Of a DNA stretch of 64,000 nucleotides, positions 3,716-55,668 are shown piece by piece. A program made the position numbers and the translations under genes. Position 1 is the first letter of the stretch. Every line of letters begins with the position of its first letter. This DNA is from Medicago truncatula. Taxonomy: Eukaryota; Streptophyta; Magnoliopsida; Fabales; Fabaceae. The stretch spans positions 4,479,001 through 4,543,000 of the forward strand of contig NC_053047.1 in NCBI RefSeq assembly GCF_003473485.1. Reading direction: 5' to 3'. The notes below the pieces were generated by a model. It made no database searches. It saw only the letters and a program-made list of their open reading frames with translations, and was not told where the DNA came from.

Positions 3716-3724
3716 TTCACATTT

Positions 3725-6700
3725 CTAGGCAAAGTATTTCTTGACTATATCGGCATTCACTGGATTTGGAAGCTCTACACCATCCATGTGTGTAAGGATT
3801 AAAGCACCACCGGAGAAGGCCTTCTTGACAACATAAGGACCTTCATAGTTAGGCGTCCACTTGCCCCTTGGGTCGGGTTGCTGGCTTATCCTCCTTTTCA
3901 ATACAAGTTCCCCTACCTTGAATTCTCGAGGATGGACTTTCTTGTCAAAAGCAGTCTTCATTCTTGCTTGATATGACTGTCCACGAGCCATGGCATCCAT
4001 ACGTTTTCCCTCAATCAAATTCAACTGATCATACCGGCTTTGGCACCATTCAGCCTCAGATAACTTTGCTTCCATTATCACACGGAGAGATGGGATCTCC
4101 ACTTCCAAAGGAAGAACTGCTTCCATACCATATACAAGAGAGAAAGGGGTTGCCCCGGTTGAACTGCGCACGGTAGTGCGGTAGCCATGCAGAGCATAGG
4201 GTAACATCTCATGCCAGTCCTTGTAAGTGGTTACCATCTTCTGGACAATTCTCTTGATATTCTTGTTGGCGGCCTCAACTGCACCATTCATCTGAGGTCT
4301 ATAGGGAGAAGAGTTATGATGCTCAATTTTGAATTCTTCACAAAGAACTTGCACCACATTATTGTTCAGGTTGGTACCATTGTCGGTAATAATCTTGCTG
4401 GGAACACCATATCGACAGATGATGTTGTTCTTGATGAACTTAGCTACCACTTGCTTGGTCACATTGGTATAAGATGCTGCTTCAACCCATTTGGTAAAGT
4501 AGTCAATTGCCACTAAGATGAAACGATGACCATTTGAAGCCTTCGGTTCAATTCTTCCAATCATGTCGATGCCCCACATCGAGAACGGCCATGGGGATGA
4601 CATAACATTGAGAGCGTGCGGAGGCACATGAATCTTATCAGCATAGATTTGACATTTGTGGCATTTTCTGGCGTACTGGTAGCAATCATGCTCCATAGTC
4701 ATCCAGTAGTAACCTGCCCGTAGCAACTTTCTTGACATAGTATGCCCTGTAGCATGGGTCCCGAAGGTACCGTCATGTACATCATGCATTAACTGCTCTG
4801 CCTCATGTTCATCAACACATCTTAACAATACCATGTCATAGTTTCTCTTGTACAGAATATCTCCATCTAACAGGAATCTACTGGCCAATCTTCTCAAGGT
4901 CTTCTTGTCTTGTTTGGAAGCACCCGGCGGATACTCACGGCTCAGCAAGAACCGTTTGATGTCGTAGTACCAGGGTTTATAGTCAACCACATTTTCGCCA
5001 GCCTGATCGATCACATCCCCAATAGCAAACACATGGGAAGGTCTTTCAAGGCGTTGCACTTTGATTACTGGCACATCATTCCAATGGTTTACTCGGAACA
5101 TGGAAGATAGAGTAGCAAGAGCATCCGCCATTTGGTTCTCATCACGAGGAATATGATGCAGCTCAACCTTTGTAAAATATGTCAGAAGACGTCTCGCATA
5201 ATCACGATAAGGAATCAACTTAGCATGGTGGGTCTCCCATTCACCCTTTATCTGATTGATGACGAGCGCAGAATCTCCATAGATGTCGAGGTGTTTGATT
5301 CTCATGTCAATTGCTTCCTCGATCCCGAAGATACATGCTTCATACTCAGCCATGTTGTTGGTACATTCGAACAGAATTCGGGCGGTAAAGGGAATGTGAT
5401 GCCCTTGCGGGGATACAATGACTGCCCCAATTCCTTTGCCATAAGCATTGACAGCACCATCAAAGACTAAACCCCACTTGCTATTGGGATCTGGACCTTC
5501 ATTAATCAACGGTTCGTCGCAGTCTTTGGATTTCAAATACATGATCTCTTCATCAGGGAAATCGAATTCAATTGGTTGGTAATCATCAAGAGGTTGATAA
5601 GCAAGGTGATTGGCAAGAATGCTGCCTTTGATTGCCTTTTGAGTTTTGAACACAATATCATATTCAGACAAAAGCATCTGCCAGCGTGCGATCTTCCCAG
5701 TAACGGCCGCTTTCTCAAAGATATACTTTATCGGATCCATTCTGGATATCAACCAAGTTGTATGATTCACCAAATAATGGCGCAGGCGTTTGGCAGCCCA
5801 AGCTAAAGCACAACAAGTCTTTTCAAGCATTGTATATCGAGTTTCACAATCGGTGAACTTCTTACTTAGATAGTAGATAGCATGCTCTTTCTTTCCGGTT
5901 TCATCTTGTTGACCAAGTACACATCCCATGGATTCATCAAATACTGCCAAATACATAATCAAAGGCCTTCCTTCCACGGGTGGGACAAGGATAGGTGGTT
6001 CCAGCAGGTAATTCTTGATGCTATCAAAAGCTTCTTGGCATTCATCATTCCATACAACAGGCTGGTTCTTTCTAAGTAGCTTGAAAATCGGCCCGCAGGT
6101 TGCAGTCATGTGAGATATGAATCGGGAGATGTAATTCAAACGTCCCAAGAAACCTCTGACTTGCTTCTCTGTCTGTGGAGCTGGCATTTCTCGGATGGCC
6201 CGGACTTTATCAGGATCGACTTCAATGCCCTTTTGGCTGACAATGAAGCCTAATAACTTTCCGGACCTGACACTGAATGTACATTTGTTGGGATTCAATC
6301 GCAGCTTGTATTTTCTCAACCTTTCAAACATCTTTGTTAAATATTCAACATGCTGCTCCTCATCTGCTGACTTCACAATCATGTCATCCACATATACCTC
6401 AACTTCTTTGTGAATCATGTCATGAAACAGAGTGGTCATTCCCCTTTGGTAGGTAGCACCGGCATTGATTAGGCCGAACGGCATCACTTTGTAACAGAAA
6501 GTACCCCATGGAGTGATAAAAGATGTCTTTTCTCTATCTTCAGGGGACATTTTGATCTGATTGTAACCGGAGAAACCGTCCATGAAGGAGAACACCTTAG
6601 ATTGAGCAGTATTATCAACAATCACATCAATATGAGGTAATGGAAAGTTGTCTTTTGGACTGGCTTTGTTCAAGTCCCTGAAGTCAACACACATCCGGAC

Positions 6701-7213
6701 TTTACCATCCTTCTTTGGCACAGGCACAATATTGGCAACCCATTCGGGATACTCAACTGTCATGAGGAAACCCGCATCGATCTGCTTTTGAACTTCATTC
6801 TTGATCTTGAGGGCCATGTCAGGATGAGTCCTCCTCAATTTCTGCCTGACGGGAGGACATTCAGGCTTGGTAGGGATCCGATGCTCCACGATCATAGGGT
6901 CTAGACCTGGCATATCTTCATAGGACCATGCAAAAATATCCGGATATTCCCGGAGGAGTTGGATGATCTTCTGTTTAACCCCTTCCTCTAGAGTAGCACC
7001 AATCTTGATTTCTCGCTTGTTTTCCTCGGTACCTATGTTGATAAGCTCAATCTCTTCTTGGTGAGGCTGAATGGCTTTCTTTTCTTGCTCAAGTAACCGA
7101 GTGATCTCATACGGTATGTCATCACCTTCCTCATCTTCGGCTTCATATACAGGGAAATCAAAACTTGGAGGAACCGTAGGATTACTGTGTTCAACGGGTT
7201 TATTATGGTTCAA
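3725..7213 (-). CDS. Ogre-like pol polyprotein: RT, RNase H, second RNase H, integrase (1162 aa)
   Basis: Retrotransposon polyprotein that copies the element's RNA and inserts the DNA. Domains in order: reverse transcriptase at about 160-340 with the YVDD active site at 274-277; the usual gypsy RNase H at about 415-540; a second, archaeal-type RNase H at about 578-703 (WGLVFDGA, NNMAEYEA and YGDSALV motifs); the integrase zinc finger with H820, H824, C851 and C854; the integrase core with D883, D944 and E980; and a C-terminal domain at about 1060-1162. The dual RNase H is a known mark of the Tat lineage. Protease is in the preceding frame. Ogre elements are known to splice between protease and RT, so the true N-terminus may be formed by splicing. 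The frame is open throughout and looks whole. Confidence 0.93.
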   Translation of the reverse strand: MNHNKPVEHSNPTVPPSFDFPVYEAEDEEGDDIPYEITRLLEQEKKAIQPHQEEIELINIGTEENKREIKIGATLEEGVKQKIIQLLREYPDIFAWSYEDMPGLDPMIVEHRIPTKPECPPVRQKLRRTHPDMALKIKNEVQKQIDAGFLMTVEYPEWVANIVPVPKKDGKVRMCVDFRDLNKASPKDNFPLPHIDVIVDNTAQSKVFSFMDGFSGYNQIKMSPEDREKTSFITPWGTFCYKVMPFGLINAGATYQRGMTTLFHDMIHKEVEVYVDDMIVKSADEEQHVEYLTKMFERLRKYKLRLNPNKCTFSVRSGKLLGFIVSQKGIEVDPDKVRAIREMPAPQTEKQVRGFLGRLNYISRFISHMTATCGPIFKLLRKNQPVVWNDECQEAFDSIKNYLLEPPILVPPVEGRPLIMYLAVFDESMGCVLGQQDETGKKEHAIYYLSKKFTDCETRYTMLEKTCCALAWAAKRLRHYLVNHTTWLISRMDPIKYIFEKAAVTGKIARWQMLLSEYDIVFKTQKAIKGSILANHLAYQPLDDYQPIEFDFPDEEIMYLKSKDCDEPLINEGPDPNSKWGLVFDGAVNAYGKGIGAVIVSPQGHHIPFTARILFECTNNMAEYEACIFGIEEAIDMRIKHLDIYGDSALVINQIKGEWETHHAKLIPYRDYARRLLTYFTKVELHHIPRDENQMADALATLSSMFRVNHWNDVPVIKVQRLERPSHVFAIGDVIDQAGENVVDYKPWYYDIKRFLLSREYPPGASKQDKKTLRRLASRFLLDGDILYKRNYDMVLLRCVDEHEAEQLMHDVHDGTFGTHATGHTMSRKLLRAGYYWMTMEHDCYQYARKCHKCQIYADKIHVPPHALNVMSSPWPFSMWGIDMIGRIEPKASNGHRFILVAIDYFTKWVEAASYTNVTKQVVAKFIKNNIICRYGVPSKIITDNGTNLNNNVVQVLCEEFKIEHHNSSPYRPQMNGAVEAANKNIKRIVQKMVTTYKDWHEMLPYALHGYRTTVRSSTGATPFSLVYGMEAVLPLEVEIPSLRVIMEAKLSEAEWCQSRYDQLNLIEGKRMDAMARGQSYQARMKTAFDKKVHPREFKVGELVLKRRISQQPDPRGKWTPNYEGPYVVKKAFSGGALILTHMDGVELPNPVNADIVKKYFA

Positions 7214-42858: not shown

Positions 42859-45028
42859 TTAAGTTCGATTTTGTTTGAGTAACACCTCCTTAATCACTTT
42901 CTCCAAGTTCATGTATGAACAGCCTCCAGGTCTCGTGTCCTCCTCCACCTTCTTCTTCAACTCAATTGCCTTTTGCCTCATCTTCTTTGCTTTCTCTCCC
43001 ACCATCAATTCATTAACCAGCTTCTCCACCTCCTCTCTCTTCACATTAGTGTCGATTTCAATTCCAATTTTCCATGTATTGCATAAATATCTGCAGCTTA
43101 CTGGGTGATCAGCGAAAAATGGCCAACACAACATTGGAACTCCAGCAGATATGCTTTCAGTGATTGAGTTCCATCCGCAATGAGTCAAGAATCCACCAAT
43201 TGAAGGGTGGTTCAGTACTTGCTCTTGCGGACACCAGCTCGTTATTAGGCCTCTATCTGAAATTTCATTCACAAACTCCGATGACAAAACAGCTGAGCCG
43301 CCGATGACAAGATCGGGCCTAATGATCCACAAAAAGGGTTGCTTGCTATTTGCTAAACCCCATGCAAACTCTAACAGTTTTTCTGCAGTCATAACTGTCA
43401 AGCTCCCAAAATTCACATAAACAACAGACCTAGGTTCCTTGGATTCAAGCCAATAAAGACACTTGGTATCTTCTTTCCAAAAATTGGTGCTTAAAGATGT
43501 CAAATGGTTTTCTGGACTTTGATTTAAAAACGAAGATAAAGGGCCAATAGCATGAATACAAGGGAACACAGTGGAGAGAGCATTCATTACATCCTTCTCA
43601 AGTTCATTAGAAGTGTTTAAAATATAAGCAGAGGGTCGGTGAGCCCTTCCAGACGCTTCAAGGATAAATTCTACCATGGAATCATTTGGATATTTTGCTC
43701 TTACAAAGTCCGGAAGATCCTTGATTCGGAAGTTTTTCATGTTGGAAATTTAGGTCTTAATATAAACAGATTTCATAATACATGTTCAACAACTATGAAT
43801 CAATAGCGGAAGCAAACAAAACATTGAACATGATTATGATCGGATCTACGACATGTTTGATTTACCAAGGATATTAAGAATTAGGGTATTAGGAATACCT
43901 GGATAAAGCTTTTGTAACAACCCTCTCATCAACAACGATAACCAAAGAGAGGAGATGATCTGAAACACGCAATAGAGTTAGCGGCGGCTGATTTGGTTCT
44001 TCCTCAACCGGTACCTTTATGCCTCAAGTTCTCTTCAGATGGGGAGAAGAGAGAGTATTGCCGTGTACGGTGTATTGGGGACCATAGCCTCTTTTATATT
44101 GGATGGCCATTAGGGTTTCCCATTATTCCATTAATGGGTCATCCGGACATCCACTCATGTTGAGTCCATATCAACTAATTAAATAATTAATTATCCAAAA
44201 TAGAAATCTAATTAGCCTTATTACTTAATTTGATCACTAATCAATTAAGGCTCACAATTGATAAATAGCTAATATAATTATTATTACGATATTTGCCCAC
44301 ATAATGATATTGGAATATTATTAATTAATAAAATATTCCAACATTTCAGTCCTGGAATACAATCTACTTTAGTGTCCAAATATCCGTTTGTGAGATAACT
44401 GTCATCTGTACATCAAATTACAAAATCTGTTAACTTGAAATGTCATATTAATACTTTAACTACACTACATCTATGAAGAAAGAAAGAAGATTAATTGATT
44501 GTTACCTTTTAGTGGTATGACACCTTTGTCAAACAGTGTAGGTAAGTGAAAACAAGTCAAAAACATACATGCACTGGCTGGACTAAAGAAAACAACAGGG
44601 ATTGAAAGTTCTTCAGCAGCTTGTATTGTAAAATACATGCTATTATCAGAAACTATGCAAGTAACTGGAGGGACAAGACCAGAAGTGGCAGAGTCATTAA
44701 GTCTAGCAAGAAGTTCACAAAAAGGTTGTAGGAAGTTCTTTCTGATTGATTCACATAGAGCATATATGTCTTGATTAACATCACTATCGCCTTCTATCGG
44801 AGTTAAACCATCTGGAATAGTCTCAAAGGTAAAATCGGTGAAACCATCAAACGCTTTTGGACCTCTTGATTTGAGCAAGCGTTTGTGATTGTATTCGGTG
44901 TTGACAAAGGTTATGTGAAAGCCTCTAAGGTGAAGAAGCTTTGCTAGTGTTATTAATGGAGTGATATGTCCTTGAAGTGGATATGGAATCAACACTGCAT
45001 GTGGCTTTTTATCAGAAAAATGACTCAT
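42859..45028 (-). pseudogene. UGT-7: UGT85-family gene split in exon 2 by a solo LTR
   Basis: Exon 1 is 45028-44506 (start MSHFSDKKPHAV). Exon 2 runs 44405-42859 but carries a 604-bp solo LTR at 43740-44343 plus a 5-bp duplication between IPGL and KNF. Leaving out insert and duplication, exon 2 is 938 bp, the same as UGT-1, and both sides stay open, so the insertion is the only obvious lesion. A catalytic His (PLQGHIT) and Asp (CIVSD) are present. The PSPG box (WCPQEQ to FFADH) ends in His where every other copy that can be read has Gln. Unless the insert is removed from RNA, no full enzyme can be made. Confidence 0.9.
43740..44343 (-). mobile_element. Solo LTR, probably Ty1/copia, inserted in UGT-7
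   Basis: Begins TGTTGGAAAT and ends ATATTCCAACA, with the direct repeat TTTCA at 43735-43739 and 44344-44348. These are the TG...CA ends and 5-bp target duplication of an LTR element. A TATA-like ATATAAAAG on the minus strand (44091-44100) sets the orientation. No internal region is present, so it is a solo LTR left by recombination. Superfamily is a judgement from its ends and length. Confidence 0.88.
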
Positions 45029-45507
45029 TTCTGAGTTTTCTTGTATTATAGTATGTGTATGACTTGAGGTTTAGAGATAAAGGGATTAGCCAGTGCCAAC
45101 AATACACCTACCTAACAACTCTAATCATAATGCCAAAAAACATGTCATGTGACAGCGTTTAAATTAGTCTGTAGCTGAATAAAAATTTGGTGATGAATAA
45201 TGGCAATCATTAGGCTGTGACCAATAATGTTGGAGGACTTAATGATAAGTAATCTAAGTCAAATAATTGCATGGTTTTGTAACCAATATATGTGAACAAT
45301 AAAAGATATTTAAACTGTCTCATTATTGTAAGGGAAATATATTACAGACTCTAATTTGAACTACACAATATTCTATCCGTCGCATAAAAAGTGTTTTATT
45401 TAGAATGTGTACGATTCTTATGAAAATAATTAGCTGTGTTGATTTTAATGGTAAAATTAATATCATTTACTAAAATATTCATATTAATTTATATCATTTA
45501 CTACTAA
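45029..45507. other. Upstream flank of UGT-7
   Basis: No gene. Aligns with 53528-54124 upstream of UGT-8 (AATTTGGTGATGAATAATGG; CTCATTATTGTAAGGGAAAT), so it is part of a UGT-7/UGT-8 duplication. TAA at 45505-45507 is the left target duplication of the next element. Confidence 0.65.
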
Positions 45508-47770
45508 GACTTTGTTTGCGAGTTGGATTTTGGAGGGGAGGGGAAGGGAAGGAAAGGCTCATGGCTCATGGAGTGGTAAATCCTTGTTTGCGAGTTTTAA
45601 AAAAACAAGGGAAAGGTTTTGGGGGGTTTTGAAGGGCTTTATTTGTCCAATTTTAAAGTTCCCCCAAATTGGGGGTTTTGGGGGGTTAAACATACAAATT
45701 GACAATTTTGCCCTCTTAATAATTCAAAATTCTAATTTTAGACATTACTAAAATTATTACAATCTTTTTTAAAAACAACTTATTCAAAACAACTTATTTA
45801 TACAAAACAGCTTATTACGACCTCATTTTCAAAAACGGCTTATTCAAAACAGCTTATTACGACCTCATTTTCAAAGACCACTTATTCAAAACAACTTATT
45901 TATAAAAAACAGCTTATTACGACCTCATTTTCAAAAACCGCTTATTCAAAACAACTTATTTATGCAAAACAGCTTATTACGACCTCATTTTCAAAAACAT
46001 CTTATTTATGCAAAACAGCTTAATACGACCTCTTTTTCAAAAACAGCTTACTCAAAACAGCTTATTTATGCAAAACAGCATTATACGATCTCTTTTTCAA
46101 AAACAGCTTATTACGACCTCATTTTCAAAAATCGCTTATTCAAAACAACTTATTTATACAAAACAGCTTAATATGACTTCATTTTAAAAAACAGCTTATT
46201 CAAAACACCTTATTTATGCAAAACAGCTTAATACGATCTCTTTTTCAAAAAAAAGCTTACTCAAAGCAGCTTATTTATACAAAACAGCTTAATACAATCT
46301 ATTTTTCAAAAACAACTTTTTCAAAACAGCTTATTTATCCAAAACAGCTTATTATCACCTCTTTTCAAAAAAACAGTTTATTTGTGCAAAACACCTTATT
46401 TCGACCTCTTTTCAAAAAATAGCTTATTCAAAACAACTTATTTTTACAAAACAGTTTGGATAAATAAGTTGTTTTGAATAAGTTTTTTTTAAAAAAGAGA
46501 TCGTATTATGCTATTTTGCATAAATAAGTTGTTTTGAATAAGCTGTTTTTGAAAAAGAGATCGTATTAAGTTGTTTGGTATAAATAAGCTGTTTTGAAAT
46601 AGCTGTTTTTATAAAAGAGATTGTATTAAGCTGTTTCGCATAATAAGTTGTTTTGAATAAGCTGTTTCTGAAAATGAGGTCATATTAAGCTGTTTTGTAT
46701 AAATAAGTTGTTTTGAATAAGTGATTTTTGAAAATGAGGTCATAATAAGCTGTTTTATATAAATAAGTTGTTTTGAATAAGCTGTTTTTGTAAAAGAGAT
46801 TGTATTAAGCTGCTTTGTATAATAAGTTGTTTTGAATAAGCTATTTTTGAAAATGAGGTCATATTATGTTGTTTTGTATAAATAAGTTGTTTTGAATAAG
46901 CGATTTTTGAAAATGAGGTCATAATAAGTTGTTTTGTATAAATAAGTTGTTTAAATGAGGTCGTAATAAGTTGTTTTGTATAAATAAGTTGTTTTGAATA
47001 AGCGGTTTTTGAAAATGAGGTCGTAATAAGCTGTTTTGTATAAATAAGCTATTTTGAATAAGCTATTTTTGAAAAAGAGATTGTATTAAGCTGTTTTGCA
47101 TAAATAAGCTGTTTTGAATAAGTTGTTTTTGAAAAAGAGATTGTAATAAGTTGTTTTGTATAAATAAGCTGTTTTGAACAAGTTGTTTTTTTGAAAAGAG
47201 GTCGTAATAAGCTGTTTTGTATACATAAATTGTTTTGGATAAGTTGTTTTTGAAAAGAGATTGTATTAAGCTGTTTTGAATAAGCTGTTTTTCTGAAAAG
47301 AGGCCATAATAAGTTGTTTTGTATAAATAAGCTATTTTGAATAAGTTGTTTTTTAAAAAAAGATCGTAATAATTTGTTTTTCATAAGATAAGCTATTTTT
47401 TAAAAAGAGGTCGTAATAAGTTGTTTTGTATAAGTAAGTTGTTTTTAAAAAGTGATTGTAATAAGTTTTTTTTTTTTTTTATAAATAAGTTGTTTTTTAA
47501 AAATAGATTTTAATAATTTGTTTTTCATGCGATAAGTTGCTTTGAATAAATTTGAAGTTAAATTACGAAGTATAACAATGTATTGATTTTAAGAGGAAAA
47601 ATGGTAAAATAGTAAAATTATACTATAAGCCCTCCATCTCCTTTTCTTTATTGACTTTTTAACTCCCAAACAAGAGGAAGGTTTTCCCTCCTTTCTCCCT
47701 TCCCTCCCTTTCCTTCCCTTCCTCTCCTTAGCCTTTCCTTTCCTTCCCCTCAAAACTCGCAAACAAAGCC
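45508..47770. mobile_element. PIF/Harbinger-like foldback element with tandem-repeat arms (2263 bp)
   Basis: The left end GACTTTGTTTGCGAGTT and the right end AACTCGCAAACAAAGCC are inverted, next to mirrored G-rich and C-rich runs (GGGGAAGGGAAGGAAAGG). TAA flanks both sides (45505-45507 and 47771-47773), the 3-bp duplication usual for PIF/Harbinger and Tourist elements, whose ends often contain CTTTGTTTG. The left arm (about 45770-46455) is a tandem array of a 60-bp unit with CTTATTCAAAACAACTTATT and CAGCTTATTACGACCTCATT. The right arm (about 46456-47530) is the same unit inverted. An empty site exists at 54122-54124. Short open frames come from the repeat and are not genes. Confidence 0.85.
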
Positions 47771-47773
47771 TAA

Positions 47774-53527: not shown

Positions 53528-55668
53528 ACTCTAGTCATAATGCCAACAAAACATGTCATATCACAGCATTTAAATTAGTCTGAAGCAGATGAAAAATTTG
53601 GTGATGAATAATGGCAATCATTAGGCTATGTTACAACTGGTCATATAACAATATAAGATGTTGGAGGACTTGATCTAAAGTAATCTAAGTCAAATAATTG
53701 CATGGTTTTGTAACCAATATGTGACCAATAAAAGATAGTTAAACTTTCTCATTATTGTAAGGGAAATCTATTACAGACTCTAATTTGAACTACACAATAT
53801 TCCGCTCCTCGCATAAAAAGTGTTCTATTTGGATTATGTTCTATTTTTAAAAAATAAAGGGAAATGTTAACGAGTCTTTTTTGGGGAATTCTTTAACGAC
53901 TATAAGTAATAAGTATTTATAAAAAAATTTGTAATTAATGCATTGGAAATTAAAACGTTTGATTTTTTTTTAAAAGTAATTGCTTATTTTAGAATGTTTA
54001 AGGAGTATTCCGAAGGCGCTCGTTAACACAAAACCCATAAATAAATTAATTGTGTTGATTTCAATAGTAAAATTAATATCGTTTACTAAAATATTCATAT
54101 TAATTAATATGATTTTACTACTAAAATACGCTTAGTTTGTGTTTTTTCTTAGTTTGTGTTTAAATGTTGAGATAAAGTCAAAGTTTCTAGATTTATGGAT
54201 AAGAAAATAGAGGAAAAAGGCAAGGGAGACTAACTTAAAGTCCCAACTTAGTATGACCCTTTTGATAATGATACGTAAGATAAAAATAACAATTTCTTAA
54301 TCAAAAGTTGGTAGCACAAACATAAGCGTGCCTTTGGTTTCATGTAGTGAGAATTGATTTGAGAATTCGATCACTTCATAAAATTATTTTTGTTTTAAAG
54401 TAAGTTGAACATAAAATAATTTATGTTTATATTTTTTTTTTAGCGCATTTTGTAATTTTTCTAGTTTGTTCAGTAATCTAATTATGAGTGATAAGATAAT
54501 TAACTCATGAGAGTTAATAGAAGAAAGTATATCACCACAACATAATGGATATCTATCCTTCAAATAAAAAATATAATTAACATTTAGTAACATTTGAAAA
54601 TTATTACTAAATCAAGAAAAATGTTACCGATTAAAATCAATAACCTTTGTACAATTGTTAGGTATAGTCTGTATTACTAAATACATTAATAATGGCATAA
54701 TACACTTTATATAGTGATCAAGGTTGCTAATTTCCTCAACAAAAAAAATAAAGGGTCACTAATATTAGCAACCGACAACTAATCATAACTAACTTATAGC
54801 TATCTTAATCTTTCAAAAAAACTTATAACTATCCTAAAAAATATGAAACTAATTCTAACAAATATCAAACTATCTAAGAAATTATCAAACAATATCTTCA
54901 TATGATTGTTGACTGACCAAAACAAAAAAGATTCAATTTCCTATTTGAACTAGAAGACAATCGTATAAGATGTTTCTCATGACAAACAAAAAGATTCTAT
55001 AATTGTACAGAAAAGATCCAAAACAAGTATGACTATTTTTTTCTTTTATCAGAGTCTATTGGCTATTATTGGCCATGCCTTAATCAGTCCAAATTTTCAC
55101 ATCATGAAAATATTAAATATTTGAATTTGCACAAGACAATATCTCTCCCTTGTCTTTTAACGAGGGTTGTAAAACTGTTTTATACATGCATCCAATCAAG
55201 CCATGTCATAATGGCAATTGTTTAGGTTACTTCCTCAAATATCTCAAAATATAATAAACATGGGGTGATCTGATAAGATTCAACGCGTAAAAAAGCTTTA
55301 CACCGTCAGTTTTCAGCAATTAATCTCTGCAAAGTATTTCTGCCTACAAGATTTGATAGGATTCTACATATGATTTTTATTTTGTTTTGAAAAAATGGAT
55401 CGGATCCTTCACATGAACATGATAATGAAATTCAAGATACCGTGAAAGAATTCTTATTCCCTCTACTTTACATATTAAAATGGTAGGATTCATATTATAA
55501 AGTTAATATACATGCCATATAATTATCCAATATGCATATATTCAAAACATTCAGTTTAGGAACTCTTGCTGAAGATGAGTTCACTTACATCATCACTTAA
55601 ATTCAATAGGGGAAGATCAATCAATTATTGTTGAACTGCTTTGCATAAAAAATTACTTAAATTTGATT
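53528..55668. other. Intergenic region between UGT-8 upstream flank and UGT-9
   Basis: No gene. 53528-54130 aligns with the UGT-7 upstream flank. 54400-54535 aligns with 47800-47960. 54770-55200 is an eroded copy of block A. 55385-55660 is the downstream flank shared with UGT-3. Confidence 0.6.
54122..54124. other. Empty (pre-insertion) site for the foldback element
   Basis: TTTACTACTAAAATACGC here equals TTTACTACTAA plus TAAAATGTAT flanking the element at 45508-47770, with a single TAA instead of two. It therefore shows the target before insertion. Confidence 0.75.

Follow-up and report, generated by a model that had tools for sequence, protein, structure and literature searches.

A foldback copy of the PIF/Harbinger subfamily MtPH-A6-4 with arms of inverted 60-bp tandem repeats in Medicago truncatula

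MtPH-A6-4 is a published PIF/Harbinger subfamily of Medicago truncatula (Grzebelus et al. 2007, PMC2213677) whose 17-bp terminal inverted repeat (TIR), GGCTTTGTTTGCGAGTT, is given in Table 3 of that paper. In the sections drawn on here, the subfamily is described as carrying arrays of a 60-bp repeat on both sides of the element in opposite orientation, the 60-bp repeats with a triplicated AAACNNCTTATT being found in 18 of 23 published members. Five empty sites are reported there, abortive gap repair is the route proposed for changes in the subfamily, and the core element MtPH-A6-4-Ia is 4699 bp long, with TPase preceding orf1. At the level of titles and opening lines of abstracts, the literature on foldbacks with tandem-repeat arms offered nothing closer to the element analysed here than MtPH-A6-4 and the Drosophila elements Galileo and Tetris. 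Galileo, of the P superfamily, resembles it in having long, length-variable terminal inverted repeats and many non-autonomous two-arm copies, and in its F group arm length comes partly from internal tandem repeats; it differs in its transposase superfamily and in its F-group unit, which is ~210 bp and present two or three times as against 60 bp and ~30 times here (portions consulted of PMC3573991). Tetris of Drosophila virilis, called apparently non-autonomous, is likewise a foldback with internal tandem repeats, but its 220-bp unit itself forms satellite-like arrays (portions consulted of PMC4079207), whereas the tandem array on M. truncatula contig C15 described below repeats a whole foldback-bearing unit.

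The window, i.e. the whole 64,000-nucleotide stretch of M. truncatula DNA analysed, contains at 45508-47770 on the plus strand a 2263-bp non-autonomous foldback element that is assigned to MtPH-A6-4 by its ends, its TAA and its array layout, as compared with Table 3 and the Results of PMC2213677. The target-site duplication TAA reads at 45505-45507 and again at 47771-47773. Of the two 17-bp TIRs the left (45508-45524, plus) has one mismatch to the published GGCTTTGTTTGCGAGTT and the right (47754-47770, minus) matches it exactly; the terminal letters are GACTTTGTTTGCGAGTT on the left and, as the reverse complement, GGCTTTGTTTGCGAGTT on the right. Repeat-free subterminal regions follow inward at 45525-45750 and 47553-47753 (plus strand), giving repeat-free ends of ~243 bp left and ~218 bp right of the arrays. 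The left arm (45751-46449, plus) holds ~12-13 imperfect 60-bp repeats in ~0.7 kb, with 13 unit hits on the plus strand starting at 45755, and the right arm (46456-47552, minus) holds ~18-19 in the opposite orientation in ~1.1 kb, with 19 unit hits on the minus strand. The arms meet head to head near 46452, within a junction designated type A (46424-46492, plus) that a probe also detects in 11 of 30 further sequences. The first-pass annotation had proposed a 2.26-kb element with Harbinger-type ends and a TAA duplication, its arms made of ~60-bp repeats running ~690 bp one way and then ~1.07 kb the other, and this outline is confirmed, almost to the base as regards the element and its duplication.

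These features are those published for MtPH-A6-4, and the window element therefore is, as judged from its sequence, a copy of this known, many-copy subfamily and an ordinary member of it. Besides the TIRs and the TAA on both sides, which agree with the 3-bp TAA/TTA duplication expected of the subfamily, the 60-bp repeat is the published one; Tandem Repeats Finder gives period 60 on both sides, alongside other periods, and AAACNNCTTATT occurs 48 times, 20 times on the plus and 28 times on the minus strand with each set confined to its own arm, as against a mean of 0.015 and a maximum of 1 in 200 mononucleotide shuffles. The commonest spacings of this motif over 24 copies of the element are 14, 18 and 28. 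A related coding copy with TPase and orf1 downstream, also expected of the subfamily, is present as locus L039, which carries DDE_Tnp_4 rather than the P-type transposase that kinship with Galileo would predict, and nothing was found against membership in MtPH-A6-4. The alternative, raised earlier, of an uncommon foldback family is thus half right: it is a foldback family, but a many-copy one already described in PMC2213677. Relative to the sections of that paper drawn on here, what appears to be new is the sharing of junctions and of the left boundary among copies, and the step changes on contig C15.

Read as RNA, and with RNA parameters, the element is predicted to have 81% of its bases paired, with a minimum free energy of -995.7 compared to -445.7 +/- 5.7 for 8 dinucleotide shuffles, and 630 of 752 predicted arm pairs join left to right. 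Aligned in inverted orientation the whole arms are 78% identical over 1528 columns; the longest ungapped stretch is 87% identical over 198, and shorter stretches reach 93%. Because of the 78% whole-arm identity, the predicted hairpin is strong yet not near perfect, and the earlier description of a near-perfect hairpin was overstated.

Other copies were sought in the 429.9-Mb genome. The left end (first 293 bp) gave 388 candidates, and the 40 scored comprise the window's own and 39 more that are 92-95% identical to it; the right end gave 248 candidates, the 40 scored again being the window and 39 others (94-96%), six of these 39 on contig C15. End matches are spread over contigs C1 to C8, and the 17-bp end occurs exactly 332 times genome-wide compared to 0 for the reversed pattern. 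The transposon reading, which depended on other copies sharing the ends, is accordingly upheld. In a first set of 20 fetched loci both ends could be placed for 17, three (L012, L015, L030) being left out for want of a right end in the expected orientation; with the window this makes 18 copies. All 18 are head-to-head foldbacks, of 1624 to 3795 bp, L029 having only 4 left-arm unit hits, and TAA/TTA is the same on both sides in 15 of them, the window included (exceptions L018, L019, L020). A second set of eight loci added six delimited copies (L033-L038), five of them head-to-head foldbacks and one, L034, nearly a left arm alone, bringing the total to 24 copies with lengths from 1439 to 3795 bp; of the other two loci, L031 belongs to the C15 units and L032 consists of two right ends in opposite orientation, without a left end. 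The copies were picked by the likeness of their ends to those of the window element, which favours foldbacks, and the 24 are consequently not a random sample. The boundary between left end and array is identical in all 24, window included; in L021, L029 and L038 ~14 bp of the first repeat are absent. Three further loci (L041, L042, L043) are MITE-sized relatives that share the 17-bp ends and measure 370-384 bp from TIR to TIR.

A paralogous site without the element lies in the window at 54039-54532 (plus). Compared with the joined flanks of the element it reads left flank, single TAA (54122-54124), three matching bases, ~230 bp of foreign sequence from 54128, and right flank. The earlier claim that the empty site is preserved in the window needs qualification: the single TAA is real and supports the element boundaries, but the site is not clean, having its own insertion 3 bp further on. 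That insertion (54128-54357) includes the near-inverted stretches ACGCTTAGTTTGTG and ACGCTTATGTTTGTG and is perhaps another small element. With the joined flanks as query, the rest of the genome yielded no clean empty site among the 40 matches scored of 517 candidates. Part of the left flank, 45406-45489, is itself repeated in the genome; 37 of the 42 joined-flank matches listed fall outside the element's region, nearly all on this part.

The coding relative L039 is a 4698-bp element with both ends present and TAA on both sides, in which DDE_Tnp_4 is split across two frames and Myb_DNA-bind_3 lies downstream (Pfam). With 4698 compared to 4699 bp, and TPase before orf1, it is probably the published MtPH-A6-4-Ia. 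Bases 3-234 of the window element are 84.5% identical to its left end. L039 has an array on the right only, its 26 motif copies all being on the minus strand and confined to bases 3723-4400 of the 4698, and the left-arm repeats of the window element match solely this right array, inverted. There is one such copy, from which a left array may have been lost. L040, which measures 4577 bp from TIR to TIR, was considered as another coding candidate and set aside, its frames being partly repeat-derived.

A 69-base probe for junction A was written from the copies themselves, with a cut-off of 53 chosen after the scores had been seen. Twelve of the 31 sequences score at least 53 of 69 and no other exceeds 47; the carriers are the window, L011, L013, L017, L021, L022, L024, L026, L027, L033, L038 and one C15 unit. 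Among the 24 delimited copies, 11 (including the window) thus carry junction A, at different loci, and 13 have other junctions, e.g. type B in L014 and L020 and type C in L023, L025 and L028. Placed on a tree built from the ends, type A requires 4 changes, or 3 without the coding relative, compared to a shuffled mean of 8.5, and 1 of 500 shuffles was as low; type C is not clustered. Of the 22 inner branches of this tree, 2 are starred and 17 are open, so that a single origin of junction A is favoured, no more. Later deletion across the centre could account for the other junctions in 13 of the 24 copies.

On contig C15 (L031, L050, L051) a 581-bp segment is repeated in tandem from base 1 to ~33700, nine times in full and once in part, at 99% identity. 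Of the six units read there, four have the foldback and two share the 581-bp segment without it. The four, of 3235-3310 bp, have the same foldback insertion with its left end missing; identity among them is 99.68 to 99.97%, and their only indels of at least 5 bp, of 60, 59 and 14 bp, are all in the arms. Barring assembly error these indels are changes after insertion, gain and loss not being distinguishable.

The explanation in which we place high confidence, taken as a whole, is that an MtPH-A6-4 founder foldback spread as such and had its arms adjusted later. That a local minisatellite or satellite was inverted by chance, with no transposon involved, appears extremely improbable: the sequence is mostly tandem repeats, and foldbacks do stand in a tandem array on contig C15, but the ends are fixed, the flanking trinucleotides match in most of the first 18 copies, matches are found on C1 to C8 with exact ends in one orientation of the pattern only, and a coding relative exists in L039. 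An assembly artefact is to be considered, long inverted tandem repeats being hard to assemble; against this stand 24 delimited copies with a common left boundary and varied arm lengths, and the same build was reported independently in 2007 (PMC2213677, in the parts drawn on), and we regard such an artefact as most unlikely.

A further alternative is that a short element inserted and its arms then grew in place, by slippage or template switching. The C15 duplicates do indicate that unit-step changes occur after insertion, and nearest units within the same copy and arm are slightly more frequent than in 200 permutations (43.1 compared to 26.9 +/- 4.9). Yet for ~545 of 599 near-full units from 18 copies the closest unit belongs to a different copy (for ~416, to the same arm of a different copy), and the mean distance between units of the same arm is 0.134 within and 0.132 between copies; homogenisation of units within a copy was looked for in this comparison and not found. 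Since within- and between-copy distances are alike and nearest units lie mostly elsewhere, most unit variants would predate dispersal, the small same-copy excess being compatible with some duplication in place; a pattern of this kind could arise by exchange between copies as well. The junction and left boundary common to different loci likewise speak against growth in place, as does the length of the four copies that branch nearest the coding relative, a mean of 3122 bp compared to 2328 for the other 20, with the reservation that these four, three of which carry junction A, were chosen after inspection of the tree. Comparison of the window with 17 copies gave 41 of 96 gaps of at least 40 bp that are no more than 4 bp off a multiple of 60, where 14.4 are expected if uniform; this excess carries little weight because aligned tandem arrays tend to yield such gaps anyway. 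In-place growth is accordingly rejected as the origin of the arms on the unit comparison, the common junction and the common left boundary, and as a whole we consider it unlikely; the growth after insertion suggested by the first-pass annotation survives as fine adjustment, of the kind seen in the 60, 59 and 14 bp steps.

Returning to the founder foldback, its history may be proposed as follows. The common left boundary, junction A at different loci and the right-only array of L039 together make it probable that the foldback arose once, before the window insertion. The coding ancestor would have had a 60-bp array beside its right end only, going by one copy, and in a single founder this right array would have been copied and joined, inverted, to the left end with loss of the coding middle, likely through template switching during repair after excision, by abortive gap repair. 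The founder would then have spread as a foldback, its copies, including that in the window, being presumably mobilised in trans through the transposase and Myb-like orf1 that coding relatives, for example L039, would supply. On the simplest view the founder had long arms and later change was mostly loss; the arms would have changed by whole 60-bp units or by shorter submotif steps, of the sizes observed, via misalignment or recombination between repeats.

In the window, a cluster of similar frames on the minus strand (20552-63262) looks like tandem UDP-glycosyltransferase genes, and the element lies among them. Three frames of the cluster were compared with Pfam: two C-terminal exons hit PF00201, and an N-terminal exon had no match. 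The nearest open frame on the element's left, in a gene at 42859-45028, has its ATG at 45028; its second exon matches UDPGT and its first has no Pfam match, and the near end of the element is ~480 bp upstream of this ATG. An effect of the element on this glycosyltransferase-like gene is by its closeness testable. Elsewhere in the window, a long open frame at 3725-7213 (minus) has reverse transcriptase, RNase H and integrase in Gypsy order, and a separate tandem array of period 54-57 bp occupies 1869-2262.

A more speculative and rather doubtful proposal is that the one event that made a one-sided Harbinger array into a mirror pair let the foldback out-multiply its coding parent, through stronger binding of the transposase or its Myb-like partner at two AAACNNCTTATT arrays. 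The motif is absent from all three MITE-sized relatives examined (L041, L042, L043), which have the same TIRs; it is thus not essential for movement, and its absence there counts against the binding reading. If the proposal were true, the hairpin build would be a putative amplified binding platform and not a by-product.

In practical terms, the window element need not be handled as a new kind of element. The C15 duplicates of one insertion preserve a record of how a large inverted array mutates by repeat steps, and it appears that foldback shape and repeat number differ in their history, the one seemingly inherited and the other still changing.
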